The notes under the pieces are model-generated. The model made no database searches and was not told the DNA's origin. It worked only from the letters and a program-made list of their open reading frames with translations. 64,000 nt of DNA, from the IMG/VR virus record IMGVR_UViG_3300043418_000114, positions 186,001-250,000 of that record; one strand, 5' to 3'. The position numbers were made by a program, and so were the translations under genes. This DNA is from a virus. Shown here one piece after another: positions 48,030 through 64,000 of the stretch (its first letter is position 1; each line of letters begins with the position of its first letter).

Positions 48030-48032
48030 ACT

Positions 48033-48108: not shown

Positions 48109-48109
48109 A

Positions 48110-48283: not shown

Positions 48284-48297
48284 ATCATTCTCCTTCT

Positions 48298-48572: not shown

Positions 48573-48577
48573 ATATT

Positions 48578-48676: not shown

Positions 48677-48683
48677 ATTATCT

Positions 48684-48775
48684 TGGCGGAAAGCAGAGGA
48701 GTCGAACCCCATCCCCGTTAGGAGAACCCAGTTTTCAAGGCTGGTCGGCACACCAACGCGCCTGCATTACTTTCC
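48684..48775 (-). tRNA. tRNA-Ser(TGA), second copy
   Basis: Anticodon loop CTTGAAA on CCAGC/ACTGG; class-II variable arm CTCCTAACGGGG; acceptor GGAAAGT/GCTTTCC; GCCA encoded. Diverged from the copy at 43015. Confidence 0.95.
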
Positions 48776-48776
48776 T

Positions 48777-49781
48777 TTATTTTTTGACGCCACGGGATGG
48801 ATTGAGCAATTCATGTAGATGCTCAATATATCGGTGGACTTCTTGATACACTAATTTTAGGTATCGTCTACGAACCTGCACTTCTTGTGGGTTGCGCGGT
48901 TCGGCGAATCTATTGCTGATTCTATTGTTTATGTAAGAAATGATATCTTCACTTTCAATGCGAGGAATATCTTGTAGTCTTTCAACTTTATCTAAGCCAT
49001 TTGCTTTAATAACGTCTAATGCCATTTGATGTGCAAATGCGGCAATTTCTTGTGGACTAGCATAATACAAGTCGTAGTAACGATCTTTGTTCTTAGACTT
49101 TACAGCCTTTTGTGCGGCGCTGTAGAACTCACCCTTAGTTTTATCTAAGTAGCTACGATATTCAGTCTTGCCTAGTGGTCTATGTGCCTGTTGCTTGTGT
49201 TGAACTAAGTGTACTGCCTCGTGAACTACAATTGATACAATCTTGTCGATTGCACTGTCCATGTCTTTCAAAAGTACATTAAGAATTTCTCTGTCATTAG
49301 ATTTCAACATCTTGAACAAGAAACTCATGCCCTTTGTTCTATCGCCTGCCTCATAATTGTCATACAAATAAATGCTAAAACGATTCATGATTGTACGAGC
49401 AATTGCTGGCAAGTAAGCACGATTAATAACCATGTTAGAACCCTGTGCGTAACCGCCCATGCCCTTCATGGTACCAAATCTGAACTTAGATATTGCGTCT
49501 TTACCAAGGATCTTTTCCAAGGTAAGTTTCATTTGTTTGGTAATACCTTTTTCAATCTTTTCATTACCTTCACGTTGCATGAACTCACGTACATAACGAT
49601 CACTTAGGTTATCGTCGTTTAAGATTTCTTGCAAGTTTGGATTGTTCATGAATGACTTTTCCAATGCAGACACGCCATTAATAATGCCGTCTTTAACAGC
49701 CCTTGACAAGTCTTCTTCATACTTGGTCATACTTATGGCTTCATCGACCACTTCTTCATTAACAAATTCAAATATACGCAT
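48777..49781 (-). CDS. Zincin metallopeptidase-like phage protein
   Basis: 334 aa from ATG 49781. VSIVVHEAVHLVQHKQQ gives HExxH at 187-191 and YYASPQEIAAFAHQ a downstream Glu ligand. The N-terminal ~110 residues are helical and Asn/Glu-rich; the C-terminus contains RNPQEVQVRRRYLKLVYQEVHRYIEHLHELL. GATAAATA stands 8 nt before the ATG. Possibly a late, virion-associated protease; substrate unknown. Confidence 0.75.
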   Translation of the reverse strand: MRIFEFVNEEVVDEAISMTKYEEDLSRAVKDGIINGVSALEKSFMNNPNLQEILNDDNLSDRYVREFMQREGNEKIEKGITKQMKLTLEKILGKDAISKFRFGTMKGMGGYAQGSNMVINRAYLPAIARTIMNRFSIYLYDNYEAGDRTKGMSFLFKMLKSNDREILNVLLKDMDSAIDKIVSIVVHEAVHLVQHKQQAHRPLGKTEYRSYLDKTKGEFYSAAQKAVKSKNKDRYYDLYYASPQEIAAFAHQMALDVIKANGLDKVERLQDIPRIESEDIISYINNRISNRFAEPRNPQEVQVRRRYLKLVYQEVHRYIEHLHELLNPSRGVKK

Positions 49782-49802
49782 AGTACATATATTTATCTTA
49801 TT

Positions 49803-49880
49803 TGGTGTGTCCTGTTGGAATCGAACCAACTTCTCCGATTTTTCAGACCGGCGCTGAATGACCACACTAGCTCAGGACAC
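49803..49880 (-). tRNA. tRNA-Phe(GAA), second copy
   Basis: Anticodon loop CTGAAAA on CCGGT/ATCGG; acceptor GTGTCCT/AGGACAC; unusually long D arm; ACCA encoded. Confidence 0.93.
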
Positions 49881-49881
49881 A

Positions 49882-50244
49882 TTAAATTGTTTTATATCTT
49901 TTATCTTTTTGCTTGTGTTCTACGTCCCACTTGATTGCGGCGCCAGAACAAAACTTTTCATCTTTCCAGAATCTTGCTCCATTCAATATGAATGGCTTCA
50001 ATACTCTATCACCGTTCCACCAACCACGTTGGCATTTAATGAAGCCTTTTGCTTCTAATTCGTTTCGTAGTTCTTTGAACTCTGGATGATCATCATGTGA
50101 CAATGACTTACATCGATCCTCGCCCTTGATAATCTTAATCAATTGATCTGGTGTTAGTTCGTTTACTGGAATGTGATCATACATTCCCCACTCTTTTTCA
50201 ATCTTAACATCACATAATGAATTCATGTCGATTTCAAACTTCAT
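49882..50244 (-). CDS. Hypothetical phage protein
   Basis: 120 aa from ATG 50244 (GGAGGAAG ribosome site). DHIPVNELTPDQLIKIIKGEDRCKSLSHDDHPEFKELRNELEAKGFIKCQRGWWNGDRVLKPFILNGARFWKDEKFCSGAAIKW. The mid helix and Trp-rich C-terminus look like a small DNA- or RNA-associated domain; unassigned. Confidence 0.72.
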   Translation of the reverse strand: MKFEIDMNSLCDVKIEKEWGMYDHIPVNELTPDQLIKIIKGEDRCKSLSHDDHPEFKELRNELEAKGFIKCQRGWWNGDRVLKPFILNGARFWKDEKFCSGAAIKWDVEHKQKDKRYKTI

Positions 50245-50410
50245 GCTTCCTCCATTGTAGGTTTTTGAGCGCCCAACTATCTTTCTCAAGGACTCACTGG
50301 ATTGTCTCGTATGAAGGAGTTTAGCAACCTTGTACTGCTACTGGCGTGTCAGTCACAAGAATAGGGACCTAGCGCACAAGGGACTCTACTTCTACGTCTA
50401 TCTCAAAAAT
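50245..50410 (-). other. Gene-free stretch
   Basis: No credible gene, tRNA or strong helix seen; probably spacer or unrecognised RNA between the gene starting at 50244 and the mini tRNA-like element. Confidence 0.3.
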
Positions 50411-50464
50411 TGGTGGTAGGCTTTCCTGGCACATGTAACCAGTAAGGCCCGGGCGCCGCCTACC
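50411..50464 (-). tRNA. Mini tRNA-like hairpin with CCA
   Basis: Only 54 nt: acceptor GGTAGGC/GCCTACC (7 bp perfect) followed by A and CCA; inside, CTGG/CCAG forms one short arm. It looks like a tRNA acceptor minihelix with an encoded CCA end and no anticodon arm. Confidence 0.45.
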
Positions 50465-50474
50465 ATAACTCGAA

Positions 50475-50556
50475 TGTGTGTTGTAGGATTCGAACCTACA
50501 TCAGGAGGTTTTTAGGCCTCTTGTAATGATGCCCTAAACATTTATACGAAACACAC
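50475..50556 (-). tRNA. Atypical tRNA with large D region and 8-nt anticodon loop
   Basis: Acceptor GTGTGTT/AACACAC and T arm GTAGG-TTCGAAT-CCTAC are perfect. GAGG/CCTC closes an 8-nt loop CCTAAAAA; the D region is ~25 nt. Anticodon TAA (Leu) or AAA is possible. CCA is not encoded. Confidence 0.6.
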
Positions 50557-50561
50557 AAAAC

Positions 50562-50640
50562 TGGCTTCGTTAGCAAGACTCGAACTTGCGATAGTGGCTT
50601 CAAATCGCGTATGCTGGGTGCCACCGTGTTTCCCAAAGTT
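50562..50640 (-). tRNA. tRNA-like 3' part with CCA, expanded anticodon loop
   Basis: T arm GCAAG-TTCGAGT-CTTGC, TAACGAA and GCCA are tRNA-like; GTGGC/GCCAC could be an anticodon stem around a 21-nt loop. No 5' acceptor partner for TAACGAA is found upstream. Boundaries uncertain. Confidence 0.35.
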
Positions 50641-50826
50641 ACCCTCGTATCCCCTCTGCTAGTTTATCTCACTTTTCTCACATTTCGACCTGTTCCGCAC
50701 TTCCCGGACTCACAGTGTTTGGTTTTAAAGCCTACGCGATTGTTATCTACTTTGTTTTACTAGTTGCCTTATTAATAGCATACTCAATACTACTCTACCT
50801 TCCTCTACACTATAACGAAATAAAAT
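50641..50826 (-). other. Gene-free stretch
   Basis: About 185 nt without a gene or clear tRNA; A/T-rich, no convincing helix family member seen. Confidence 0.3.
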
Positions 50827-50902
50827 TGGCACCGTAGACGGGAATCGAACCCGCCGCGTCTTCATAGACAGTGAAGTATCACCCCTAGGTGAACTCTACG
50901 GT
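50827..50902 (-). tRNA. tRNA-Asp(GTC), second copy
   Basis: Anticodon loop CTGTCTA on CTTCA/TGAAG; acceptor ACCGTAG/CTACGGT; GCCA encoded. Confidence 0.93.
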
Positions 50903-50907
50903 ATAAA

Positions 50908-51447
50908 TCATTTTACAACATCTTGCCAACGAATGACTAGTGATTTGTCGTAATTTTGAGTTTTGTTCTTTCTGCGATTTTCCAATGCAGGAAGATACTG
51001 AAAGTTATCAGGATGATGTAGACCTCCGCATGCCAATGGCACAATATGGTCGACTTCGTATCCAGTTGGACAACTCTCGTAAATTTTTCGAATTAACTGA
51101 CTATCAACGTAATCAGGTGTTGCGTTGTACTTTCTCGCTCTATAGTTTTGTACATTCAACACATTTAATTTTGCAGATTCGTCTTTCGTTTTTCTTCCAA
51201 CTTTATCCCAATAAGCTATTCTAGCCTCTGATATTTTGGCAGAATGTTCTGCTGTTCTCGGCTTAAGTTTCTTTCCTTTGGTACTGGTTTGCTTAATTGA
51301 ACCAGAAGCAATTCCTTCTTTAACCGAGTTGGCTATTTTTCGTTTCGTTTCATCGGATCTAACTCTAGAGTTAGCACACGGTCTACAACAATACTTTCCT
51401 GATCCATATGATCCATCATGTTCACTATTACATTTGAGGCAAAACAT
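50908..51447 (-). CDS. HNH homing endonuclease with zinc and NUMOD-like region
   Basis: 179 aa. CLKCNSEHDGSYGSGKYCCRPCANSR is a zinc site; RSDETKRKIANSVKEG resembles a NUMOD DNA-binding repeat; GYEVDHIVPLACGGLHHPDNFQYLPALENRRKN is the HNH core. GATAAATA and AAAGGAA lie upstream. Selfish endonuclease embedded in the tRNA array, with no intron visible next to it. Confidence 0.9.
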   Translation of the reverse strand: MFCLKCNSEHDGSYGSGKYCCRPCANSRVRSDETKRKIANSVKEGIASGSIKQTSTKGKKLKPRTAEHSAKISEARIAYWDKVGRKTKDESAKLNVLNVQNYRARKYNATPDYVDSQLIRKIYESCPTGYEVDHIVPLACGGLHHPDNFQYLPALENRRKNKTQNYDKSLVIRWQDVVK

Positions 51448-51496
51448 ATTAAATTCCTTTAATATATTTATCGAACCTCGCTCATTCTTTAGTTTT

Positions 51497-51572
51497 TGGC
51501 TCCCCAGGATGGGATCGAACCACCGACATCCTGATTAACAGTCAGGCGCAACTACCGCTGTGCTACTGGGGA
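51497..51572 (-). tRNA. tRNA-Asn(GTT), second copy
   Basis: Anticodon loop CTGTTAA on CCTGA/TCAGG; acceptor TCCCCAG/CTGGGGA; GCCA encoded. Confidence 0.96.
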
Positions 51573-51580
51573 ATAATTCT

Positions 51581-51655
51581 TGGTGCCTCCACCTGGGCTC
51601 GAACCAGGGACTCCCACCTTATCAAGATGATACTCTACCACTGAGTTATAGAGGC
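51581..51655 (-). tRNA. tRNA-Ile(GAT)
   Basis: Anticodon loop TTGATAA on TCATC/GGTGG; acceptor GCCTCTA/TGGAGGC; ACCA encoded. Confidence 0.96.
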
Positions 51656-51665
51656 AATTAATTGT

Positions 51666-51739
51666 TGGTACCCAGTGCAAGAATTGAACTTGCGTCTATC
51701 GATTATCAGTCGATTGCTCTTCCGTTGAGCTAACCGGGC
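51666..51739 (-). tRNA. tRNA-Ile(GAT), second copy
   Basis: Anticodon loop CTGATAA on ATCGA/TCGAT; acceptor GCCCGGT/ACTGGGT; ACCA encoded. Confidence 0.94.
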
Positions 51740-51745
51740 ATTGTT

Positions 51746-51821
51746 TGGTAGATGTGAGTGGATTCGAACCACCGACCTGCTCCGTATGAAGGAGATGCAC
51801 TAGCCGCTGTGCTACACATCC
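51746..51821 (-). tRNA. tRNA-Met or Ile2 (CAT)
   Basis: Anticodon loop TTCATAC on TCTCC/GGAGC; acceptor GGATGTG/CACATCT; ACCA encoded. Confidence 0.93.
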
Positions 51822-51827
51822 ATTGTA

Positions 51828-51902
51828 TGGTGCTCCTTGACAGAATCGAACTGCCACCCCTAGATTACAAAACTAGTCCACTACCATTATGATTAAAAGA
51901 GC
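51828..51902 (-). tRNA. tRNA-Thr(TGT), second copy
   Basis: Anticodon loop TTTGTAA with one T-T mismatch closing it; acceptor GCTCTTT/AAGGAGC; ACCA encoded. Somewhat degenerate. Confidence 0.88.
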
Positions 51903-51905
51903 AAA

Positions 51906-52025
51906 TAAAACAGGATACATTCTTGACGAATGCTCTACCAATTGAGCTAATCTCGCATGAAGCGAAATGTTGGAATCGAACCAACGACACATCGTTTGAT
52001 GTAGTTTGCTGTATGTATCCTAAAA
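51906..52025 (-). ncRNA. RNA element D: permuted tRNA body in an AGGATACAT/ATGTATCCT helix
   Basis: Minus strand order: AGGATACAT, ACAGCAA, hairpin ACATC/GATGT, T arm GTTGG-TTCGATT-CCAAC, 3' acceptor ATTTCGC, 5-nt loop, 5' acceptor GCGAGAT, TA, D arm GCTC-AATTGGTA-GAGC, linker, ATGTATCCT. The acceptor strands pair over 7 bp and the closing helix over 9. No standard anticodon loop forms. This is the topology of YrlA-type Y RNAs or of a circularly permuted tRNA. Confidence 0.7.
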
Positions 52026-52026
52026 T

Positions 52027-52146
52027 TGGCGCCGCCGGAGGGATTCGAACCCCCATCTCTTCCTTGACATGGAATTTTTATATGCTGAACGTACTCTGTA
52101 CAGAGTCACTTTTTATAAGTGTCCTGATCCATTAGACGACAGCGGC
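52027..52146 (-). tRNA. tRNA-Asp(GTC)-like with insertion before the anticodon arm
   Basis: Acceptor GCCGCTG/CGGCGGC, D arm GTC-TAATGGATCAG-GAC, anticodon hairpin TTCC-ATGTCAA-GGAA and T arm GGGGG-TTCGAAT-CCCTC with GCCA end. About 45 nt are inserted between D and anticodon arms, containing hairpins CACTT/AAGTG and ACTCT/AGAGT. Could be an intron or a tRNA mimic. Confidence 0.72.
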
Positions 52147-52153
52147 GATAAAT

Positions 52154-52227
52154 TGGTGCGGGGTAAGGGAGTTGAACCCTTGACTAAACGTTGGCAACGT
52201 TTGATTTTACCGTTAAACTAACCACGC
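52154..52227 (-). tRNA. tRNA-Gly(GCC), second copy
   Basis: Anticodon loop TTGCCAA on AAACG/CGTTT; acceptor GCGTGGT/ACCCCGC; ACCA encoded. Confidence 0.94.
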
Positions 52228-52235
52228 ATAAAAAC

Positions 52236-52312
52236 TGGAATACGGAGTGAGATTTGAACTCACGAATAACTGGTTTGCAATCAGTCCCCTTAGGCCGCTC
52301 GGGCATCCGTAC
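52236..52312 (-). tRNA. tRNA-Cys(GCA), second copy
   Basis: Anticodon loop TTGCAAA; acceptor GTACGGA/TCCGTAT; TCCA encoded. Confidence 0.92.
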
Positions 52313-52322
52313 ATAAATTGAT

Positions 52323-52398
<76 letters not shown>

Positions 52399-52411
52399 AA
52401 ATTCACTTAGG

Positions 52412-52485
52412 GGTGACCGGTGGGACTTGAACCCACAAAAACCTGAGTCACAGTCAGGGTCGTCTACCAATTCCGACACGGCCAC
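52412..52485 (-). tRNA. tRNA-His(GTG)
   Basis: Anticodon loop CTGTGAC on CCTGA/TCAGG; acceptor GTGGCCG/CGGTCAC; discriminator C as expected for His. CCA not encoded; flanks CTTAGG/CCTAAG extend the acceptor helix. Confidence 0.93.
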
Positions 52486-52506
52486 ACCTAAGTAAACTTA
52501 GGAGAA

Positions 52507-52574
52507 ATAAAACAGGATGCGTTTTTGCTTTTTACCAATAAAAGTTTTTTTAATTGCTGAATGCATCCTAAAAA
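52507..52574 (-). ncRNA. AGGAT/ATCCT-helix RNA element E
   Basis: Minus strand TTTTAGGATGCATTCAGCAA ... GCATCCTGTTTTATTT; closing helix AGGATGC/GCATCCT as in elements A and C. Directly follows the terminator at 52575. Confidence 0.62.
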
Positions 52575-52604
52575 CAAAAAACCCTGAGAGGATCAGGGTT
52601 TGTA
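52575..52604 (-). terminator. Rho-independent terminator (minus strand)
   Basis: Minus strand AAACCCTGA-TCCTC-TCAGGGTTTTTTG; 8-bp hairpin and T-run after the gene at 52622. Confidence 0.92.
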
Positions 52605-52621
52605 ATGTGTTGCAAGTATGT

Positions 52622-53275
52622 TTACTTTTTAGGATAAACATACAGTTTTTGCAAGTCTGGTCTTTCAGGTTCTAACCACTCGCCTTTCTTGCACATAGCA
52701 ATGATGCTTTTTGGGCATCCTGCTAACTCTAATTGTGTATAAGAACTAAGTCCTCTACCTTGAATTTTAGGTTGCATATGACATGGCTGAGGAACTTCTC
52801 TCCAATAACCGGTGCCATTGTCTACACCTGATGCAATGTAGTTAGTGTATTCTGCTTTGATACCAGGACGAAAATAAATTGTCAAGCCACGATCAGGTGT
52901 TTCATACACTCTAGGACCATCAACAAATATTTCTGCCATGTCTAAGCATGTCATTACAGCAGTAGGTCGCTGTAGATGATCTAACCTTGTGCCATCAGGG
53001 CATGCACCGTTGTCTAACTCAGTTTTATCGCCGTTAGGCAACTCCATGAACTCGCCATGCTGAGTTTTGAATTCACCGAACAAGTCTTGGTAATTCTCAC
53101 TGATCCAGTATTTCTCGCGTGTCCAATCTTCATCCCTATCGATGGTAGTAGTCACACCTTTAAACACTTTAATATAGCCACTATCGCCGCCATCAAGTGC
53201 TTCATAAGATAATTCTTTATTGACTGTTAATGTCAATTTCTTTGTATTGTAATCATAAATCCATGGTAAAATCAT
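52622..53275 (-). CDS. Hypothetical phage protein
   Basis: 217 aa. FKGVTTTIDRDEDWTREKYWISENYQDLFGEFKTQHG, then a Cys-containing C-terminal half (CPDGTRLDHLQRPTAVMTCLDMAEIF; PCHMQPK; ELAGCPKSIIAMCKKGEW). TATAAATACTAG late-type element and GGAG ribosome site; own terminator. Late expression suggests a structural or lysis-stage role; not recognised. Confidence 0.7.
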   Translation of the reverse strand: MILPWIYDYNTKKLTLTVNKELSYEALDGGDSGYIKVFKGVTTTIDRDEDWTREKYWISENYQDLFGEFKTQHGEFMELPNGDKTELDNGACPDGTRLDHLQRPTAVMTCLDMAEIFVDGPRVYETPDRGLTIYFRPGIKAEYTNYIASGVDNGTGYWREVPQPCHMQPKIQGRGLSSYTQLELAGCPKSIIAMCKKGEWLEPERPDLQKLYVYPKK

Positions 53276-53294
53276 AGTTCGTCTCCGATACTAG

Positions 53295-53306
53295 TATTTA
53301 TAGATT
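53295..53306 (-). promoter_or_regulatory. T4-like late promoter
   Basis: Minus strand TATAAATACT, 19 nt before the ATG at 53275 with GGAG between; the spacing is that of a normal leader. Confidence 0.6.
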
Positions 53307-53315
53307 AATGAATAA

Positions 53316-53392
53316 TGGCGCCACCGAAGAGATTCGAACTCCTGACTCCTTCGTTCGTAGCGAAGTACTCTAATCCACTGAGTTACGGCGGC
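53316..53392 (-). tRNA. tRNA-Arg(ACG)
   Basis: Anticodon loop CTACGAA on CTTCG/CGAAG; acceptor GCCGCCG/CGGTGGC; GCCA encoded. Confidence 0.97.
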
Positions 53393-53397
53393 ATAAT

Positions 53398-53503
53398 ATA
53401 ACAGGATAGTTGTTTTGCAGGGGGAATTGAACCCCCAAGGTTTGATTAGAAGTCAAATTGTGAACCGTTCACATGCGTATTGTTTGCTGTAACTATCCTA
53501 AAA
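53398..53503 (-). ncRNA. RNA element F: tRNA(TCT)-like cloverleaf in an AGGATAGTT/AACTATCCT helix
   Basis: The 9-bp closing helix and ACAGCAA motif place it in the AGGAT family. Inside, in normal order: D-arm-like GTG-AACGGTT-CAC, anticodon-type TTTGA-CTTCTAA-TCAAA (TCT), T arm GGGGG-TTCAATT-CCCCC. The tRNA acceptor is reduced to GCA/TGC and replaced by the outer helix; no CCA. Arg(TCT) mimic. Confidence 0.65.
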
Positions 53504-53504
53504 C

Positions 53505-53579
53505 TGGCATCCTGTACGGGAATCGAACCCGTCTTTATGACTTGAAAGGCCATCGTTCTTACCGATAAACTAACAGGAT
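53505..53579 (-). tRNA. tRNA-Glu(TTC)
   Basis: Anticodon loop CTTTCAA on ATGGC/GTCAT; acceptor ATCCTGT/ACAGGAT; GCCA encoded. Its acceptor resembles the outer helix of the adjacent element F. Confidence 0.94.
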
Positions 53580-53689
53580 ATTAATTCGTTCCCGTGCTAC
53601 GACTTTTACGCAACGACCGTAGTGCCCGATCTCGCAAGTTGCTCCGGACGGGAGTAGAGCAACGTTGTCTTCTTTCTGGCCAGAAATAC
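53580..53689 (-). ncRNA. Short structured RNA stretch
   Basis: No gene. Minus-strand hairpins CTACG/CGTAG, GTTGCTC/GAGCAAC (7 bp) and the palindrome TTTCTGGCCAGAAA. Confidence 0.45.
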
Positions 53690-53765
53690 TGGCACCCCGT
53701 GATGGACTCGAACCACCGCATGTCGGAATCAAAATCCGATGCCTTACCAACTTGGCGAACAGGGT
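53690..53765 (-). tRNA. tRNA-Gln(TTG)
   Basis: Anticodon loop TTTTGAT on TCGGA/TCCGA; acceptor ACCCTGT/ACGGGGT; GCCA encoded. Confidence 0.95.
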
Positions 53766-53771
53766 ATAATT

Positions 53772-53846
53772 TGGTGGAAGCCGAGGGAGTTGAACCCTTC
53801 TAGACAGCGATCTTGCAAGGATCACCCGTAGCCCGCTACTGCCCCC
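53772..53846 (-). tRNA. tRNA-Ala(TGC)-like, degenerate D arm
   Basis: Anticodon loop CTTGCAA; acceptor GGGGGCA/GGCTTCC with wobbles; ACCA encoded. The D region GTAGC-GG-GCTAC cannot form a standard D loop. Confidence 0.75.
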
Positions 53847-54050
53847 AATTGTATGGCGTCCACCGTCGGTATCACACCGCACTCCAAGTCAGCTGGTAAG
53901 TGCTGACCTACGTATCTCACGTTGAGTGGACTGTCTTATACTTCCATCGTTGCCACCACAGCATTGACTACTCATATAAGCACTAACTTGAATAGACGCT
54001 ACCGGGCATTAATATCCGCCCGTATCACAGTTAGTTGGTCTACATAAACT
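53847..54050 (-). other. Gene-free stretch with hairpins
   Basis: About 200 nt without a gene; GTCAGC/GCTGAC and CGGGC/GCCCG hairpins on the minus strand suggest further small RNA. Confidence 0.35.
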
Positions 54051-54137
54051 TGGTGGAACCCTAAGGAATCGAACCTCTTGCCACCACCCACCTTATTATG
54101 GCTACGATTTTACAGACCGCAAGCGGGAAAGGGCTCC
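54051..54137 (-). tRNA. tRNA-Tyr(GTA)-like lacking a normal D arm
   Basis: Anticodon loop CTGTAAA on GCGGT/ATCGT, class-II-like variable arm (GCCA/TGGC), acceptor GGAGCCC/GGGTTCC, ACCA encoded. The D region is too short (CCGC-TT-GCGG conflicts with the anticodon stem). Confidence 0.65.
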
Positions 54138-54148
54138 ATTAAATTGTT

Positions 54149-54222
54149 TGGTCTGGGTGGCAAGAATCGAACTTGCTCCTCGAGTATCCAAGACTCGCCG
54201 ACTTCCATTATCCTACACCCAG
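54149..54222 (-). tRNA. tRNA-Pro(TGG), second copy
   Basis: Anticodon loop CTTGGAT on CGAGT/ACTCG; acceptor CTGGGTG/CACCCAG; ACCA encoded. Confidence 0.95.
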
Positions 54223-54224
54223 AT

Positions 54225-54238
54225 TGATAAATACTATT
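54225..54238 (+). promoter_or_regulatory. T4-like late promoter abutting a start codon
   Basis: GATAAATACTATT immediately before the ATG at 54239; no Shine-Dalgarno between. Confidence 0.5.
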
Positions 54239-54802
54239 ATGAATACACAAAAACTACGCCAACTAATGAATCTATGCGAGGGTCGTAACCCTGATCTAGA
54301 ATATCAAGACGCAGAAGATAAAGTCATTGCTAGACTTCAAAGTTATAAGAGTCAATCTTATACTAAACTTGCTCAAAAAGTCAACCGCATCAAAGAATTA
54401 AAAGATGAGGTCAAGGCCTTAGAGGAAGAAGTCAAACAAGAAACTCGTGAAAACATCAATGATTTGTTTGATGCCGAAGATGCTGTAAAAACACGCATCG
54501 TTGAAACTATGAGTTTTATTCTTACTCTAAGCAAGAATCCAAAAGCTACAGAAACTCCTAAGTACAAGGACATTCTGAATGAACTTACTAATCACTTGAC
54601 TCCAGAGTTGATTAACGTCCTAGAAGGTCTTAAGAAACAAATGGTTACTGTTACTCAGAAAGAACCATCATTGAAAATTGAACCACTTAAGGAAGGTTTC
54701 TTAGGCTCATACTTTGCACGTTTGAAAAACGCTGTTATGAGTTGGGGTCAACGTTATGACCAGAAACTCGATAACTTAAAGCGTTTAGCTTACTCAAAAT
54801 AA
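54239..54802 (+). CDS. Helical late protein, possibly virion-associated
   Basis: 187 aa from ATG 54239. Long charged helices RLQSYKSQSYTKLAQKVNRIKELKDEVKALEEEVKQ, then helical bundle ILTLSKNPKATETPKYKDILNEL; C-terminus LGSYFARLKNAVMSWGQRYDQKLDNLKRL. Late-type promoter, plus strand among minus tRNAs. Could be an assembly or structural factor; unassigned. Confidence 0.72.
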   Translation: MNTQKLRQLMNLCEGRNPDLEYQDAEDKVIARLQSYKSQSYTKLAQKVNRIKELKDEVKALEEEVKQETRENINDLFDAEDAVKTRIVETMSFILTLSKNPKATETPKYKDILNELTNHLTPELINVLEGLKKQMVTVTQKEPSLKIEPLKEGFLGSYFARLKNAVMSWGQRYDQKLDNLKRLAYSK

Positions 54803-54804
54803 GT

Positions 54805-54882
54805 TGGCAGAGGTAACTGGATTCGAACCAGTGTTCACGATTTCAAAGACCGTAGCTTTAGGCCAGACTAAGCTATACCCCA
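54805..54882 (-). tRNA. tRNA-Gln(TTG), second copy
   Basis: Anticodon loop CTTTGAA on ACGGT/ATCGT; acceptor TGGGGTA/TACCTCT with 1-72 mismatch; GCCA encoded. Highest-coordinate tRNA of the array. Confidence 0.9.
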
Positions 54883-55791: not shown

Positions 55792-56820
55792 TCACAACAA
55801 CCATCGTTGATTCTTCATTGTCCACTCTACAACATCACGAAGTTTATCTTGAAATGTGTACTTTGGTTTCCAACCCAACGATGCCAGATACTCTCCTGAC
55901 AAACTGTAGCGAAAATCATGACCAGGTCGTTGACTATCATTTCCAGTGATTTGATATTGTAGCGTCTTGTTCATCACTGTAGCAATCATTTTGGCAACTG
56001 CTAGATTACTAAATTCCTCATTTGCTGTGATGTTGAATTTAGGACAGGTGATGCCTTCTGTGTTGGATGGCAATGAAAACTGCTTGTGTGGCAGATTCAT
56101 AATGAACAATGTGGCTAGAGCCACGTCTTCTACATAGATCCAATGACGTAGTCCACTCACTGTGCCAGTACTATCGCCATGAATTGTAACAACTTCATCG
56201 TTCGATAACTTATTCATCACTAAACCAATGAACTTTTCTGGATTCTGTCTCTCGCCGAACGTGTTCATAACGTGTAGGCAGTATATTGGCATGCCATACG
56301 TATTCTCATATGCTACGCACAGTTCTTCTGCCGCGGCCTTACTTGCACTATATGGACTACGACTGTTATATCTGTCGTATTCGTTGAAATTTACACCAGC
56401 TGGAGCACTTCCAAAAATCTCATCCGTCCCAAAATAGATGAACTTTTCTAGATTAGGAAGATGATGCCTTGCATATTCCAATAGGTTACATGTGCCTACC
56501 ACGTTGTCTTGAATGAATTGAACTGGATTTTGTATGCTTCTGTCAACGTGACTACCCGCGGCTAGGTGAATAATATAGTCAACGTTGCCTAGTTGTTTGG
56601 CTAGCTGAGGATTAATTTCTGCACGAAGATCATGGTAGATTACTCTAAGATTATGATTTACTGGATCTAACTCATCGCGTATTTCGACTAATCTATTCAG
56701 ATTGCCAGAAAAATCCAGTCTATCCAGACTAGTCACCTGGTAGCCTCTCGACAATAGTTGTTTTATTAGATGATGACCAATGAATCCTGCTCCACCTGTC
56801 ACTAGTACATTTTTACCCAT
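55792..56820 (-). CDS. dTDP-glucose 4,6-dehydratase-like SDR enzyme
   Basis: 342 aa extended SDR: NAD-binding VTGGAGFIGHHL at 6-17, LAAGSHVDRSI, FGTDEIFGSAP, catalytic YSASK near 157-161 and C-terminal RPGHDFRYSLSGEYLASLGWKPKYTF, the RmlB-type substrate region. Makes 4-keto-6-deoxy nucleotide sugars for surface glycans. The TATAAATA late element is 4 nt before the ATG. Exact sugar substrate not certain. Confidence 0.87.
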   Translation of the reverse strand: MGKNVLVTGGAGFIGHHLIKQLLSRGYQVTSLDRLDFSGNLNRLVEIRDELDPVNHNLRVIYHDLRAEINPQLAKQLGNVDYIIHLAAGSHVDRSIQNPVQFIQDNVVGTCNLLEYARHHLPNLEKFIYFGTDEIFGSAPAGVNFNEYDRYNSRSPYSASKAAAEELCVAYENTYGMPIYCLHVMNTFGERQNPEKFIGLVMNKLSNDEVVTIHGDSTGTVSGLRHWIYVEDVALATLFIMNLPHKQFSLPSNTEGITCPKFNITANEEFSNLAVAKMIATVMNKTLQYQITGNDSQRPGHDFRYSLSGEYLASLGWKPKYTFQDKLRDVVEWTMKNQRWLL

Positions 56821-56861: not shown

Positions 56862-57764
56862 ATGGACATACTGACTATTACATGCGACCGCGACTTCGAT
56901 ATCATGGAGTCTCACGCCAAAAGCATTCAACGTTTTTTGGCACCATGTAAGCATTGGGTTTTCGTAAATCAGTCAAAACGCTCACGCCAAGACTGGATGG
57001 AAATGCTAGAGCCATATTACACAAGGCATGAACTAGAAATTGTCTTCACCGATGACATAGAATCATTTGGTGACTTGAATGGTTGGATCGTTCAACAGAT
57101 ATGGAAGATACGTGCAGTAGATTGGATCAAAAAGGATTACGTTGTTTTTGATTCTAAAAACATATTTGTGCGTGACACTGACGTTGGCACATGGACTCAT
57201 GAAGGACCTGGTGTGTTTGGATACTTACCCGACACTGAGCAGAAGCCAGATGATCCTGACTTTGATTTAACTATCAACTACATTCTGTCTGCCAGAGATT
57301 GCTATGTAAAGTACTATAATTTACCAGCAATTAAAAAGACTATGAACATTATCACGCCATTCGTAGTGCGTGAAAAAGTAATGTCTGAGTTGTCAGCTAT
57401 GATCAAAAAGAATAACGTGTTTGTAGACGTACCAATCGACGACAAGGTTATATGGCATGGTGACTTTTTGCTATACAGTATGGTAGCAGAAAAATATGGA
57501 CTACTAGACACTGAACCTGACTTCCATCTTCCAGGCGATGTTACTAGTAAATCTGTATTCTATCATCATTCAGAATGGGAACAAGATGCATACAAGAGTG
57601 GGTTTGATAGATTACGCAACAATGAAAACTATGCGTGTTTGAGTCTACATCATACCTGGTTAGCGAATGCTTCAATGAATGAGCGTGTGGAAATGGCAGA
57701 GTTCTTAGAGCAATTGGATGTGCTACCAGAACGATTAAAAAAACAAATATTGAGAATAAAATGA
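56862..57764 (+). CDS. Putative glycosyltransferase (DUF6492-like)
   Basis: 300 aa. MDILTITCDRDFDIMESHAKSIQRFL opens a GT-A-like fold; VVFDSKNIFVRD is in the position of a DxD strand; SVFYHHSEWEQDAY and SLHHTWLANASM occur at the C-terminus. Comparable proteins are annotated as DUF6492 in glycan clusters. First gene of the plus operon; its stop overlaps the next start. Sugar transfer to the product is inferred. Confidence 0.68.
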   Translation: MDILTITCDRDFDIMESHAKSIQRFLAPCKHWVFVNQSKRSRQDWMEMLEPYYTRHELEIVFTDDIESFGDLNGWIVQQIWKIRAVDWIKKDYVVFDSKNIFVRDTDVGTWTHEGPGVFGYLPDTEQKPDDPDFDLTINYILSARDCYVKYYNLPAIKKTMNIITPFVVREKVMSELSAMIKKNNVFVDVPIDDKVIWHGDFLLYSMVAEKYGLLDTEPDFHLPGDVTSKSVFYHHSEWEQDAYKSGFDRLRNNENYACLSLHHTWLANASMNERVEMAEFLEQLDVLPERLKKQILRIK

Positions 57765-58537
57765 GACATGAACAAACTAAATTAGACAATCATATTCTTT
57801 TTGCAATTCAGTTACTGAGTTATGCCTCCATTCCATTGATGTTCATGTATGCTACTATTGGACAATGGATTATTGCCAGTATCATGTGTTTCTTGTTATA
57901 TCACGTTGGTGTTGCAGTTACATTCCATCGTTTGTTAACTCATAATTCGTTCAGCACAGGTCCAATCACTAAAGTGGTGATGACAATCTTAGGCACATTA
58001 GCTACTAATGGCAGTTCATTGTACTGGGTTGCACTGCACACAACACATCACAAGTATTCAGATAGTGATAAAGACGTTCACAGTCCACGCTTTGGCTTCT
58101 GGAAGACTTGGTTCATGCCTATGTATCCACATAGCCCAGTTGACTCTACTAAGCTAGCTATCCGTTTAGCTAAAGAGCCATTGCAATTGTTCTTACACAA
58201 GTACTATTGGTTCGTTATTGCCGCATATGTTCTAATGTTGTATGTCATTAGTCCATTCGCTATCGTATATGCTTACTTGTTCCCTGTAATGTTCTCATGG
58301 GCAATGTCAGCAGGCATCGTCAACACACTATGCCATGTTCGTGGATATCGCAATCACGAGACTAAAGACAATTCAACAAACATTCGTTGGTTCTCTTGGA
58401 TCACAAACGGTGAAAGCTATCATAACAATCATCACGCTAGACCAAGCAGTGCTAATTTTGGTAGCGATACCGAGTACGACCCAGGCTACTCGTTTATCAA
58501 GTTGTTAGCAAAGTTGAAACTGGCAACCTTAAAATGA
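57761..58537 (+). CDS. Membrane fatty-acid (acyl-CoA-type) desaturase
   Basis: 258 aa with the three His boxes of front-end/delta-9 acyl desaturases: HRLLTH (56-61), HTTHH (93-97) and ESYHNNHH (221-225). Hydrophobic pairs at ~13-50 and ~145-185 give four membrane passes. Introduces a double bond into a membrane-bound acyl chain using a di-iron centre. A phage-borne desaturase next to a ketoacyl synthase points to a lipid or polyketide product. Confidence 0.9.
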   Translation: MRHEQTKLDNHILFAIQLLSYASIPLMFMYATIGQWIIASIMCFLLYHVGVAVTFHRLLTHNSFSTGPITKVVMTILGTLATNGSSLYWVALHTTHHKYSDSDKDVHSPRFGFWKTWFMPMYPHSPVDSTKLAIRLAKEPLQLFLHKYYWFVIAAYVLMLYVISPFAIVYAYLFPVMFSWAMSAGIVNTLCHVRGYRNHETKDNSTNIRWFSWITNGESYHNNHHARPSSANFGSDTEYDPGYSFIKLLAKLKLATLK

Positions 58538-58851
58538 TAATTGGCAAACCTAAAGGCAAAGACCACTATACTTGTTCCTTGAGTGATAAGTATTATGAGA
58601 ATCAATGTAAGAATCCACCAGATTATTACAGTTTGTTTGACTTCCATCAAGTGCCAGATAGCTATACCTTCGTTCCTGACATAAAGAACTATGATAAATT
58701 AGAGAAAGTATGTTATCTATTTCATCACAGGCTAGTTCAGTATTATATTGATCACAATTTAGATCCTGATACCCCGTGGTGGTGGTATGATGACAAAGAG
58801 TTACATGCATTAGCAGATAGGCTAGCACAAAGAATAAAGGACACACTATGA
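58534..58851 (+). CDS. Small acidic hypothetical protein
   Basis: 105 aa: KGKDHYTCSLSDKYYENQCKNPPDYYSLFDFHQVPDSYTFVPDIKNY, then a Trp-Trp-Trp-Tyr stretch and helix ELHALADRLAQRIKDTL. Coupled in the operon on both sides. No known motif; an accessory of the pathway. Confidence 0.7.
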   Translation: MIIGKPKGKDHYTCSLSDKYYENQCKNPPDYYSLFDFHQVPDSYTFVPDIKNYDKLEKVCYLFHHRLVQYYIDHNLDPDTPWWWYDDKELHALADRLAQRIKDTL

Positions 58852-59672
58852 GTACTAAACGAATTTCACACAAAAACACGCCAATGGTCATGCGTATTCC
58901 ATTGCCAGCATCACTAGCACAATTGCAAAAAGAAACACTAGATTTGATTGCTAAACCAAAAGAAGAACGCCGTAGAGTTGACAATGATTCAACATTCGCC
59001 GCACTTGACGCAGGCGAAGAAGGCAAGTACTCAGTCTATTCGAATGATGGCATCGATATGCAAGGCACGACTGGTGAAAAGTTTGAGTACAACGTTGCAT
59101 CGTTCTTTGAAATGAATGACAAAGCCAAGCAATGGGTAGCTGACAATGGCGGCCATCGTCGTGTTATCAGTCCACTAAATCGCTATCGTGGCTACATGAA
59201 TCCTTGGGTCAGTGAGTACTGGGATCCAGGACTAGACGAGCGTGTGTTTGACAAGCCAACTGAGTTGAACGTTGGTATCTTTAAAGAACTAAACGATTGG
59301 TTCAGTAACAAAGGCTATAGTGTTCGTCGTAGTGCTTTAGTCAGAGTTATGCCGCACCAATTCTTGAGTCCCCACGTTGACACTGGTCCTGATTTTATCG
59401 TTCGATTCCAAATCCCAGTTATTCACAATGACAAAGCGGTAATGGGTTTCAGAAAGTCTAAGACTGATCCATGGACAGTATTCAACTTCGAACCAGGTTA
59501 CATCTATGCTGTTAACTCAGGACTAGAACATTTTGCACGTAACGATGGCGACGATGACCGAGTTCAATTCCGTATCTGTGTTGAAGAATACAATGTATTA
59601 GAAGAACTAGGTTTCGAAGAATGGAATCAAGCCATGACTTGGGAAGATTGGGAAACACCCAAGTATGACTGA
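58848..59672 (+). CDS. 2-oxoglutarate/Fe(II) oxygenase, Asp/Asn-hydroxylase-like
   Basis: 274 aa. SPHVDTG gives His176 and Asp178, SGLEHFARN gives His228, and FRI (Arg242) is placed to bind 2-oxoglutarate: the ligand order of aspartyl/asparaginyl beta-hydroxylase-type oxygenases. Likely hydroxylates the pathway product or a carrier-bound intermediate. Followed by a second enzyme of the same class. Confidence 0.82.
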   Translation: MSTKRISHKNTPMVMRIPLPASLAQLQKETLDLIAKPKEERRRVDNDSTFAALDAGEEGKYSVYSNDGIDMQGTTGEKFEYNVASFFEMNDKAKQWVADNGGHRRVISPLNRYRGYMNPWVSEYWDPGLDERVFDKPTELNVGIFKELNDWFSNKGYSVRRSALVRVMPHQFLSPHVDTGPDFIVRFQIPVIHNDKAVMGFRKSKTDPWTVFNFEPGYIYAVNSGLEHFARNDGDDDRVQFRICVEEYNVLEELGFEEWNQAMTWEDWETPKYD

Positions 59673-60303
59673 TTGCTATCAAAGTCATGGTAGCGTTGAC
59701 GAACAAATTGTACTTGAGTTGCACAAATATCTAGACAGTATTTTTCCTCAAGAGATTCGTAATAGTTATCCATTGTCTGAGAATGTGTATTACACATTCC
59801 ACATGAAATACTTGTTTGACAAAAGCGTACCATTGGACATGGACGCATTGTCGTGGTATGGCGATGGTGAACGCACAGTTGACTTGATATATGATATGCA
59901 TCCCTTGAAGATTTACAAGGTCATTGAATCAGTTAGACGAGGGGTAATTGATATCATCGCTGTGGTAGATGATGCGCCTGGTAATGAGACCTTCAAAGAA
60001 TTCATCGGGGCCATGGAAGAAAAAATGGGTCGCAAAGTCCTGAAGGTTGCATTCAGTGTGTGTGGCGAAGGCCATAGAATTAAAATACACAAAGACTTTT
60101 CTGTTAAATACGACAACAAACTTCACTTAGTTATTAAGAACGGTGGAGTTAGTTCGCTTGTATGGTACGACGACAATTTCAAAGAACTTGCTAGATGTAA
60201 TGGGCAAAGTGGTGAATTGTTCTATTTTGAGGGTGACAAATACTTTCACCGTTTTGATAGACCAAAGAGCGAACGCATACATCTAATTATGTGCTTTGAA
60301 TGA
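59665..60303 (+). CDS. Second 2OG/Fe(II) oxygenase-like protein
   Basis: 212 aa. IKIHKDFS gives His142 and Asp144, followed by LHLVIKNGG, and YFHRFDRPKSERIHLIM gives His195 and Arg204, the beta-hydroxylase arrangement. Shorter than its neighbour and different in sequence, so a distinct enzyme rather than a duplicate. Overlaps the upstream gene by 8 nt. Confidence 0.75.
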   Translation: MTDCYQSHGSVDEQIVLELHKYLDSIFPQEIRNSYPLSENVYYTFHMKYLFDKSVPLDMDALSWYGDGERTVDLIYDMHPLKIYKVIESVRRGVIDIIAVVDDAPGNETFKEFIGAMEEKMGRKVLKVAFSVCGEGHRIKIHKDFSVKYDNKLHLVIKNGGVSSLVWYDDNFKELARCNGQSGELFYFEGDKYFHRFDRPKSERIHLIMCFE

Positions 60304-61718
60304 AACAGGTTGACTTTCTAATAATTGGCGCAGGCCTTGCTGGAATTGGTGCGGCAGTTCACTTCCAAAAACAATACCCAAACAAAACTTTTGCTATCGT
60401 AGAGAAACGTGGTAGTATTGGTGGCACATGGGATGTGTTCAAGTACCCAGGTGTTCGTTCAGATAGCGACATGTTTACACTGGGTTACAGTTTCAAACCG
60501 TGGACTGGTAGTTACTATGCCACAGGACAAGAGATTAACAACTACATCAAAGAAACTGCCCAAGAATACAACATTACACAACACATCCATTTCAACACTA
60601 CAGCTAGTGGCTTAGAATGGCAAGACAATCAATGGACTCTATATACTAACAACGATATGTTCGTTGCCAAATTCGTATTGTTTGCTACCGGTTACATCAA
60701 CCACGAACGTTCACACTTCCCATTCATCAAGAACCACAATAGTTTTAAAGGCAAAATCATTCATACTCAGTACTGGGATAGTGACATAGACTATACAGAC
60801 AAGAAAATAGTCGTGATTGGCAGTGGGGCTACTGCATACACATTAGTGCCAGAACTTGCAAAGACAGCAAAACACGTGACTATGATACAGCGTAGTCCTA
60901 GCTATGTACGCAGTGAAGAACGTAACCCTGAATGGTTAAAAGACATTCGTAAAGAACTATCAGACCCACAAGAGATTCATGACAAGGTTAGATTGTACAG
61001 CACTCATATACAGCACAATCAATTTCACAATAGCAGACAAAGACCTGAAGTAATGAAACGGTTGCTTATTAACGATGTTAAGAAACAACTGGATCCAACT
61101 GTTGATATTAAACACTTCACTCCAAACTACATGCCATGGGACCAGCGTATCTGCAAGATTATTGACAATGATTTCATTCAGACTGTCAATAGTGGCACAG
61201 TTTCAATCGAGACTGACACGATTGAATCGTTTACGGTGAACACCGTTGTATTATCATCTGGCAAAGAAGTTGAAGCTGACATTATTGTTATGGCAACTGG
61301 ATTCAAGACTCGCATGATGGGAGATATCTCTATCAAAGTCGATGACGTTGACAAAGATTATACCAAACTAAAAGCATACAAAGGAACAATGATTGAAGAC
61401 TTGCCTAACTTAGGCTATATATTTGGGTATGCCAGCATGTCATGGACGTTGAAGTTAGAACTAGCACTGTCATTCTATTCACGTGTATTTGATTACATGG
61501 ATAAAAACAACTATTCAGTGTTTGTACCATTTGATGAAAACACAGTTGAGTCTGGCACAGGCTTTATTGATTTGAGTGCAAACTTCTATACACGCAGTGA
61601 AGATAAATTCCCTAGACAAGGTGTTGAGTTACCTTGGCAAAACACAAACAATATCGTAGTCGATAAGACTATGTTATTAGAAGACCCAATAGATGATGGA
61701 GTATTGAAATTCAAATGA
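60300..61718 (+). CDS. Flavin-containing (Baeyer-Villiger-type) monooxygenase
   Basis: 472 aa. FAD loop IGAGLAGIGA at 8-17, YPGVRSDSDM near 52, FKGKIIHTQYWD at ~157-168 matching the BVMO fingerprint FxGxxxHxxxW, NADPH loop VIGSGATA near 177. Inserts oxygen next to a ketone, or oxidises S/N atoms. In context it may act on a keto-acyl chain made by the ketoacyl synthase. Confidence 0.88.
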   Translation: MKQVDFLIIGAGLAGIGAAVHFQKQYPNKTFAIVEKRGSIGGTWDVFKYPGVRSDSDMFTLGYSFKPWTGSYYATGQEINNYIKETAQEYNITQHIHFNTTASGLEWQDNQWTLYTNNDMFVAKFVLFATGYINHERSHFPFIKNHNSFKGKIIHTQYWDSDIDYTDKKIVVIGSGATAYTLVPELAKTAKHVTMIQRSPSYVRSEERNPEWLKDIRKELSDPQEIHDKVRLYSTHIQHNQFHNSRQRPEVMKRLLINDVKKQLDPTVDIKHFTPNYMPWDQRICKIIDNDFIQTVNSGTVSIETDTIESFTVNTVVLSSGKEVEADIIVMATGFKTRMMGDISIKVDDVDKDYTKLKAYKGTMIEDLPNLGYIFGYASMSWTLKLELALSFYSRVFDYMDKNNYSVFVPFDENTVESGTGFIDLSANFYTRSEDKFPRQGVELPWQNTNNIVVDKTMLLEDPIDDGVLKFK

Positions 61719-62362
61719 GAGCTTGGACTAAATTCGAACACGGTAATGAAGTACACGAACACATGCTAGATGAGTTTTTAAAGACTCCTGGCATGCCTGA
61801 ACACATGTCAAGTAGAGAAGGCATTAAGATTGCAAAGTTCCAAGAGCATCCTGCTAGTGAGTTCTATATGCTAGTTGTTAGTGGCAAGATGGTAGGATGC
61901 TGTGGCTTCTATGTGTTGCATGATGACAATGGCATATTGTACTGCAAGAGCCCATATCGTTTATACATTTTACCTGAAGGCAATGGTGCATACACTGCTA
62001 ATCGTACCAGTTGGGAAAACATCAGTAGAGATTGGCTAAGTCGTTGGCCTGATATTCCATTCTTGGCAACAGTAAATGTAGGCAATGAAAAGATATTGTA
62101 TTATGAGATTCTTGGCATGCAACGATATACTGACAGATTGCCACTAGATGATCCATTCAGACAAAATCAAAAGTCATTCTACTTGCATCCCAAATTAGTC
62201 AAAGAAATGTACACGTGGCAATATGCATGGTATACCACTAACTATGTTGGATTTCAACGTGAAGAAATGGACATGGATGTTGAAGTCAAGAAACAAATTG
62301 AAGACTACTGGGCTAAAGGATATTGGCTTGGCAAGGGCAACACTGACAGGACAACAGTATGA
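61715..62362 (+). CDS. Acyltransferase-like protein (GNAT-type fold possible)
   Basis: 215 aa. EHPASEFYMLVVSGKMVGCCGFYVLHDDNGILYCKSPYRLYILPE has the beta-sheet core of GNAT-like N-acyltransferases; the CoA-binding loop is not canonical. C-terminal helix EMDMDVEVKKQIEDYWAKGYWLG. Could load or transfer the acyl chain onto an amine; assignment is weak. Confidence 0.55.
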   Translation: MRAWTKFEHGNEVHEHMLDEFLKTPGMPEHMSSREGIKIAKFQEHPASEFYMLVVSGKMVGCCGFYVLHDDNGILYCKSPYRLYILPEGNGAYTANRTSWENISRDWLSRWPDIPFLATVNVGNEKILYYEILGMQRYTDRLPLDDPFRQNQKSFYLHPKLVKEMYTWQYAWYTTNYVGFQREEMDMDVEVKKQIEDYWAKGYWLGKGNTDRTTV

Positions 62363-63561
62363 CAGACATAGCCATTATTGGAGTAGGTATTGTTGACAGT
62401 TTAGGTTTCAACAAAGACGAATGCTGGAACAACATGCTCAACGGTGTTGTTGGACTAAGCCCTAATGTTCTATTCAATAGAGAACAATATCCTATATCAA
62501 AAATCAATAGTGTTCATAGCGTAGACTTGAACAAGATAACACTTGCCGAGTTCACTGACAAAGAAAGACAGAATATGGATCGCATCTTTTTGCTTTCCAT
62601 GCATTCAATATTAGACTGTATCAAAGACAGTAATGTTACATCCACTGATGTTTCAATGATTGTAGGCATGACTAGTTCTATGAAGAATTTAGAACTAGAA
62701 TCTTGGAACAGATTACTCAATAATAAACGCACTGCGCCTAGACAAATGTACTTTGCAATGCGTGATACTATCACATCGACAATCACTCGAATGTTTGGGT
62801 ATACGGGTGCAACAAGTACCATGAGTAACATGTGTACTACATCTATAAGTTCGTTAGATTATGCTGTGCGTTTGTTAAACGACAACGACTGTGCATATTC
62901 ATTAGTCACTGGAGTAGATTCGTTCGTACACCCTCTTGACATGTATGTTATGCAATCAATGGGTGCAACATGCATTGACGAAAATCCATTAACCAAACCA
63001 TTTGACGAGAATCGTAATGGTATCACATTAGGTGAAGGCAGTTGTTCATTCATGCTAACCACCTTAGCTAATGCTAAAAATAACAATCATAAAATCTATG
63101 GCATTATTAAGGGAATAGGTCACGGTACTGAATCTGTGCATGAAACTGACATGAGTACAGATGGTATTGGTTCACGCAATGCTATCAACATGGCACTAAG
63201 AAAAGCAAACTTGTCCAGTGCCGATATTGGATACGTTAATTGTCATGCAACAGGAACACCTCAAGGAGATACTGTCGAATATGATATTGTCAGTAGCATG
63301 TTCCCAAACGTAACAGTAGGTGCAAACAAATCAAATATCGGACACACCATGGGTGCGTGTGGTATGCTTGAGTTGTTCTACACGATCATGGCGTTGAATC
63401 GTCAGGTAGCACCACCTATCGCTAATTTAATTACCCCTATAGGTCATTCAATAAATATCCCAATGACCATGCAAACAATTGACACTATGTATGCCCTAAA
63501 GAATTCTTTTGGCTTTGGTGGCAAAAGTAGTTGCGTTGTCATTGAACGGGGAACATTATGA
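62359..63561 (+). CDS. Beta-ketoacyl synthase (KAS/FabF-like)
   Basis: 400 aa, thiolase fold with complete catalytic set: Cys159 in SNMCTTSISS, His296 in NCHATGTPQGD, Lys324 and His329 in GANKSNIGHTMGACG, and C-terminal NSFGFGGKSSCVV. Catalyses decarboxylative condensation of malonyl thioesters. Shorter than FabF-type by few residues and diverged at the N-terminus. No acyl carrier protein or KR gene lies within the window, so it may use the host ACP. Confidence 0.92.
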   Translation: MTDIAIIGVGIVDSLGFNKDECWNNMLNGVVGLSPNVLFNREQYPISKINSVHSVDLNKITLAEFTDKERQNMDRIFLLSMHSILDCIKDSNVTSTDVSMIVGMTSSMKNLELESWNRLLNNKRTAPRQMYFAMRDTITSTITRMFGYTGATSTMSNMCTTSISSLDYAVRLLNDNDCAYSLVTGVDSFVHPLDMYVMQSMGATCIDENPLTKPFDENRNGITLGEGSCSFMLTTLANAKNNNHKIYGIIKGIGHGTESVHETDMSTDGIGSRNAINMALRKANLSSADIGYVNCHATGTPQGDTVEYDIVSSMFPNVTVGANKSNIGHTMGACGMLELFYTIMALNRQVAPPIANLITPIGHSINIPMTMQTIDTMYALKNSFGFGGKSSCVVIERGTL

Positions 63562-64000
63562 AGTTAGCAATGGTTTCAGCACATACAGTTGACTTTTACC
63601 ATTTTTTCAAAATTCAATATGCAATGATGCAGATGTATGACCCATTGGTTAAAATCACTGTAGCAAAGAGTGATACATTCGAGCAGTTCAATGAGAAGGT
63701 TGATTGGGTAGATTTAGGATATCCTGATTTCTTGCATCCAATGCATCGTAACTATACAACCAAATTCAACTTTGCACGTGCTCCGTTGGCACAATCAGTA
63801 GATGCAGACCGAGTAGCATGGGTAGATGCAGATATATTGCCTCTAGTTCCAACCGCTATTAGCAACTTCATGACTGTAAGTGACAAGCCCACAGTAGCAC
63901 ACAATGTATACATGAGCGATGAACAATATGATGGGTGGAATAGTCTTACTGAATGGTATGGAGTTGGTAAGTTACCATGTTATAATTGCGGATTGGTTGC
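63558..64000 (+). CDS. Glycosyltransferase-like protein, 5' part
   Basis: Begins at ATG 63558 overlapping the previous TGA and runs off the window end. MKLAMVSAHTVDFYHFFKIQYAMMQMYDPLVK then RVAWVDADILPLVPTAI, a DxD-type metal site of GT-A glycosyltransferases. Ninth gene of the operon; a second sugar-adding step is inferred. Confidence 0.65.
   Translation, partial: MKLAMVSAHTVDFYHFFKIQYAMMQMYDPLVKITVAKSDTFEQFNEKVDWVDLGYPDFLHPMHRNYTTKFNFARAPLAQSVDADRVAWVDADILPLVPTAISNFMTVSDKPTVAHNVYMSDEQYDGWNSLTEWYGVGKLPCYNCGLV

Follow-up and report, generated by a model that had tools for sequence, protein, structure and literature searches.

A stretch of viral DNA of 64,000 nucleotides (the window), positions 186001-250000 of the 364,247-bp virus record IMGVR_UViG_3300043418_000114, carries an operon that on balance appears to encode a dedicated pathway for acyl chains and to belong to a hypervariable biosynthetic island in a jumbo phage genome. 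The operon comprises 12 plus-strand genes, A to L, which start at position 56862 and end at 66562 in window numbering, beyond the window end at 64000. All 11 junctions overlap, by 4 bases at A/B, B/C, C/D, E/F, F/G, G/H, H/I, J/K, and K/L, and by 8 bases at D/E and I/J. The initial annotation of this stretch had described at least nine plus-strand genes joined by stop/start overlaps; their order, strand, and overlaps are borne out in a larger unit, with three additional genes past 64000 for a short-chain dehydrogenase/reductase (SDR), a PP-loop protein, and a methyltransferase-like protein. That a single phage-borne operon is involved was upheld by the uninterrupted overlaps and by the phage terminase of the record. 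As first proposed, an intact ketosynthase (KS), an SDR, a desaturase, a Baeyer-Villiger monooxygenase (BVMO)-type enzyme, and 2-oxoglutarate (2OG)-dependent enzyme families together imply that an acyl or polyketide-type chain is made and oxidised.

The KS (gene H) scored 88.3 bits against PF00109 and 97.7 bits against PF02801 (cut-off 20.8), and its annotated Cys-His-His active site is intact, with C159, H296, and H329 in place together with K324. Its fold family and catalytic residues are shared with FabF (KAS II) of the bacterial type II fatty acid synthase (FAS), but because its score of 222 bits against the NCBIfam FabF equivalog TIGR03150 lies far under the cut-off of 493.75, the protein is assigned to the KS superfamily and not to FabF proper. 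Condensing activity with malonyl-acyl carrier protein (ACP) is putative. The membrane desaturase (gene B) reached 63.1 bits against PF00487 (cut-off 29.7) and is akin to the solved acyl-CoA desaturases 4ymk and 4zyo. All three His boxes noted at the outset were found (HRLLTH, HTTHH, and HNNHH), plus H192, and these His positions are invariant across 13 aligned phage sequences; the one exception, the first His of the third box, is close to invariant.

Across the phage-type KSs compared, 59 of 59 share the same C/H/K/H catalytic residues, and the ratio of nonsynonymous to synonymous substitution rates was 0.06-0.18 in eight phage KS pairs. In a phylogenetic tree, the window KS groups with those of the viral loci L044 and L171 (support 100/99; L-numbers denote the viral loci compared), and the phage KSs stand apart from 36 bacterial KSs, with the exceptions of L115 and L153, which fall among the bacterial ones. 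The phage label requires 2 changes on this tree, as opposed to 29 when shuffled. The bacterial sequences were taken from among the matches listed in a scan of genome contigs, a sample that leaves distant bacterial KS groups outside and leaves room for a closer bacterial clade; all of the listed matches were ordinary FabF-like proteins, with about 24-29% identity to the window KS. The deep joins are unsure because of long branches.

Two oxygenases and a probable third are encoded between the desaturase and the KS. Gene F was confirmed as a BVMO-type monooxygenase, with an FMO-like profile score of 51.8 bits against a cut-off of 22, a Pyr_redox_3 match that is also over its cut-off, and both Baeyer-Villiger fingerprints, FKGKIIHTQYWD and GGTWDVFKYPGVRSD; the former fits FxGxxxHxxxW[P/D], and the GGxWxxxxYPG motif occurs as GGTWDVFKYPG. 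Its relatives in the PDB are phenylacetone and cyclohexanone monooxygenases, and an EthA-like enzyme of Acinetobacter shares 41-43% identity with it. Records CAKLQH02 and CAKLQF02 of the phage collection ("Acinetobacter phage MD-2021a", for example L041) were considered as a phage BVMO locus and rejected; ribosomal and rpoA genes adjoin the BVMO in a chromosome-like manner, and these contigs were therefore treated as bacterial DNA. Of the two 2OG/Fe(II) oxygenases originally annotated, gene D is well supported. Alone, it matched PF05118 with an E-value of only 0.02; the case for an Asp/Arg-hydroxylase-type 2OG enzyme is made by its relatives, since H176, D178, H228, and R238 (the HxD...H triad and the 2OG-binding Arg) are invariant in 6 aligned phage homologues and 5 of the 6 aligned members match PF05118. 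Its structure model (pLDDT 33) was too poor for use. The second oxygenase, gene E, is less secure and is proposed from an HxD...H...R pattern and a weak PF05118 match (E = 0.15).

The combination of KS and desaturase recurs widely in phages; co-occurrence of the operon genes in related phages had been set beforehand as a test of the reading, and its outcome was positive. Alignments of the two enzymes yielded about 150 further viral loci, among which 49 distinct phage-type KS loci remained after removal of near-copies. A desaturase lies within 10 kb of the KS in 20 of these 49 and is adjacent to it in 15. In a modest control set, a desaturase was near none of 19 PP-loop-anchored phage loci versus 19 of 48 KS-anchored ones (Fisher p = 0.0005). 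FA_desaturase (20) was the Pfam family seen most often in the 81 genes neighbouring phage KSs, and 2OG oxygenases were the next enzyme families.

Several of these cousin clusters are more complete than the window operon. L164, a 364,554-bp record with a terminase, holds KS, ACP, FabZ, PP-loop, Rieske, AcpS, and desaturase genes at 5245-10735, with further desaturases elsewhere in the record; its KS, ACP, FabA/Z, Rieske, and AcpS genes pass the Pfam cut-offs. L197 has consecutive KS, ACP, FabZ, PP-loop, Rieske, and AcpS genes with desaturases near, and by eye a UbiB/ABC1-kinase-like gene is also seen at 12423-13718 within its desaturase cluster. ACP, AcpS, and FabZ also occur in the clusters of L169 and L144, while ACP, KS, and desaturase stand side by side in L115 and L153. 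L160 combines a type III polyketide synthase (PKS; chalcone-synthase-like) gene, AcpS, and a 2OG gene with seven tandem desaturases (7740-8768 and 9890-15424). An ACP and phosphopantetheinyl transferase (PPTase) of their own, as expected of a self-sufficient type II FAS or PKS, are thus encoded in L164, L197, L169, and L144, and not in the window record. The chances are about even that phages encode an undescribed class of acyl-ACP-based clusters, with phage-type KS, tandem desaturases, oxygenases, and in some cases ACP, PPTase, and FabZ, for phage-specific lipids or natural products made in the course of infection; the window operon would then be a variant that includes a BVMO step and a FabG-like step.

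L044 lies on a 73-kb contig and was found by KS alignment; its KS is 39% identical to that of the window. Its cluster consists of the KS and 8 desaturases with Rieske, radical SAM, PP-loop, GNAT-like, and 2OG-like genes. About 40 proteins (25-79% identity) are common to this contig and the window phage, and the two clusters have the same right-hand neighbours at the island edge, which indicates two related jumbo phages with differing contents in one island. In L186 and L045, one of those neighbours is found next to different gene sets again. No close copy of the whole operon was found in IMG/VR, and no BVMO relative was found there with the patterns tried; the initial remark that no phage pathway of this composition was known agrees with this, the exact gene set having been found nowhere else. 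When IMG/VR was scanned narrowly or with single sequences for the KS, gene D, and the BVMO, no matches came up, and broader KS alignments alone succeeded; KS matches in isolate phages were short unannotated or bacteria-like records and were taken as bacterial DNA.

The chemistry of each enzyme family is established. On the simplest reading, the phage KS would extend an acyl chain on host ACP by condensation with a malonyl unit, the FabG-like reductase (gene J) would reduce the keto group, and the membrane desaturase would put unsaturation into the chain. The two 2OG enzymes and the BVMO-type enzyme could hydroxylate the chain or insert oxygen, and the GNAT-like, PP-loop, methyltransferase-like, and glycosyltransferase-like proteins may attach or decorate the product. 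Substrate, order of steps, use of host ACP, and product are all putative. The most likely use is alteration of the infected-cell surface, with modification of the virion or release of a small molecule as alternatives. A surface role is in line with the closeness of the operon to tail-fibre genes, and the way gene sets turn over from one related phage to another is compatible with an arms race in which surface chemistry or a bioactive compound is at stake. Moreover, the carrier protein and activating enzyme of the cousins argue for a dedicated product there and, by extension, in the window phage.

Several points weigh against such a pathway. ACP, AcpS, FabZ, and acyl-AMP ligase (PF00501) were all absent from the window phage record, which may be incomplete, and with no ACP in the record, elongation by the KS would need that of the host. 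Where the initial annotation had proposed looking past 64000 for ACP and ketoreductase genes, the FabG-like reductase is present and the ACP is not in the record. Small proteins directly upstream of several phage KSs were considered as ACPs and rejected, as they do not resemble them. The GNAT assignment of gene G and the glycosyltransferase assignments of genes A and I are weak. Of the two genes first called glycosyltransferase-like, gene A is over the DUF6492 cut-off, and gene I gave a DxD-type motif and a sub-threshold Anp1 match (E = 0.027). The acyltransferase-like protein (gene G) is GNAT-like at best, with a PF00583 E-value of 0.12 and an uninformative fold model (pLDDT 44); its one clear phage homologue lies in the desaturase cluster of L151 (E = 4.9e-6). 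In addition, single-step readings, with host lipid desaturation and unrelated passengers, are still among the alternatives. The suggested late-phage control was not sustained, since the late-promoter motif TATAAATA was not enriched: 17 copies were counted, and permuted motifs averaged 19.6. As for the remaining genes, gene C matched no Pfam or PHROG family and no phosphopantetheine-site family, gene K has 19 IMG/VR relatives, and the K-L pair recurs in phages L004-L022 with no KS or desaturase nearby.

Cyanophage lipid desaturases were reportedly described by Roitman et al. in 2018 as single phage genes acting on host lipids. The known phage desaturases (cyanophage, vFAD) resemble gene B as His-box membrane enzymes of aquatic phages akin to acyl-CoA desaturases, but they have been described singly, without KS, ACP, reductase, BVMO, or a multi-desaturase operon. 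It is conceivable, if unlikely, that the window genes are likewise independent auxiliary genes, with the desaturase (and KS) tuning the fatty acids and fluidity of host membranes and the others as unrelated passengers: for single phage desaturases such as vFAD, an action on host lipids has been proposed (PMC7300359; PMC7678222), and the window phage has one desaturase only. However, twelve overlapping genes speak against independent passengers, up to 8 desaturases and the ACP and PPTase of the cousins exceed simple fluidity control, and no evident part in such control falls to the BVMO, 2OG, and PP-loop genes. A bacterial contaminant or chimeric contig is a very remote prospect; although the record is an environmental virus contig, the operon lies inside 364 kb of sequence whose terminase has its nearest matches in other jumbo phages and whose ribonucleotide reductase genes are of phage type, with flanking genes that a related phage contig carries in the corresponding position.

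Rather improbable, too, is an island for virion or tail-fibre modification, whose 2OG hydroxylases, glycosyltransferases, and acyl enzymes would act on the products of neighbouring structural genes. Such a role is suggested by repeat-rich, large tail-fibre-like genes about 11 kb downstream of the operon, by the clusters of L180 and L305, which adjoin structural-looking genes, and by Pelagibacter phage Mosig EXVC030M (MT647606, L042), where an overlapping cluster of desaturase, Asp/Arg hydroxylase, N-acetyltransferase, and methylase genes sits beside the tail fibres. In the part of the Mosig island shown, ketosynthase, BVMO, and FabG-like reductase genes are nevertheless lacking, and its desaturase is only 29% identical. 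Furthermore, the chemistry of KS, FabG-like, and desaturase enzymes is carrier- or lipid-bound, which argues against virion proteins as substrates, and we know of no acylated virion protein of tailed phages, which also counts against this role. A still poorer candidate is a phage-borne relative of the bacterial polyyne/alkyne antibiotic clusters (PMC8406139) that makes a small bioactive molecule. The likeness lies in the several desaturases with ACP of some cousins (multi-desaturase arrays in L160 and L164) and in the rubredoxin beside the window operon, which is, however, on the opposite strand and next to a rubrerythrin. The defining fatty acyl-AMP ligase is missing from the window record and from 16 of 17 others tested, and the window record has neither an ACP nor three desaturases (one here, up to 8 in cousins). 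The phage clusters further differ in the presence of a KS and many 2OG oxygenases.

Roseobacter predicted prophages carry acpP-fabF-fabG genes and so share phage-linked type II fatty-acid genes with the window phage, but in the usual bacterial fab order and with no desaturase/oxygenase cluster described (PMC8224337). "Fatty acid" auxiliary genes have been described across viruses at community level (PMC11360552), and a large jumbo-phage survey of 2026 treats lipid metabolism in general terms only (PMC13037316). No description of KS-desaturase clusters in single viruses was found in the open-access literature, subscription papers and preprints being outside the search. Earlier reports thus concern lone desaturases or community-wide sums over many viruses, whereas here single viral records pair a chain-building enzyme with desaturases and oxygenases, and some add a carrier protein and its activator. 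If active, these clusters would let phages make acyl products, beyond the tuning of host lipids, and their differences between related phages at one genomic position suggest selection for chemical variety.

Features of the operon and its immediate neighbours are collected in Table 1; locus L002 covers the operon and the sequence past the window end.

Table 1. Genes of the operon and adjoining features (window positions unless L002 is given).
Feature	Position	Strand	Evidence or remark
dTDP-glucose/GDP-mannose dehydratase-like gene	55792..56820	-	Pfam GDP_Man_Dehyd 197 bits; divergent from operon, association uncertain
A: DUF6492, putatively glycosyltransferase-like	56862..57764	+	PF20102 38.9 bits vs cut-off 22.9
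B: membrane fatty-acyl desaturase	57761..58537	+	PF00487, His boxes
C: 105-aa protein	58534..58851	+	no family match
D: Asp/Arg-hydroxylase-type 2OG/Fe(II) oxygenase, 274 aa	58848..59672	+	invariant HxD...H...R; PF05118 via homologues
E: probable second 2OG/Fe(II) oxygenase, 212 aa	59665..60303	+	HKD...H...R; PF05118 E = 0.15
F: type I Baeyer-Villiger-like flavin monooxygenase	60300..61718	+	FMO-like, Pyr_redox_3, BVMO fingerprints
G: GNAT-like protein (weak)	61715..62362	+	PF00583 E = 0.12
H: FabF-like beta-ketoacyl synthase	62359..63561	+	PF00109/PF02801, catalytic residues intact
I: glycosyltransferase-like, DxD-type motif	63558..64000, on to 64337 (L002 9558-10337)	+	Anp1 E = 0.027
J: FabG-like SDR	L002 10330-11094	+	adh_short_C2 168 bits, over Pfam cut-off
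K: PP-loop protein	L002 11091-12032	+	SGGMDS motif
L: methyltransferase-like	L002 12029-12562	+	adjoins K in other phages
Rubredoxin	L002 12555-12683	-	PF00301 28.7 bits; convergent with operon end
Rubrerythrin	L002 12685-13137	-	paired with rubredoxin just past operon

PADLOC called no defence system, giving weak single matches only. Genes resembling TctC-type periplasmic tricarboxylate-binding proteins were seen by eye in phage contigs L020 (12141-13079) and L171 (15415-16296). Within the window, 45 tRNA genes are predicted at 39695-54882, and the tRNA at 41532-41606 is called with the four-base anticodon tttc.

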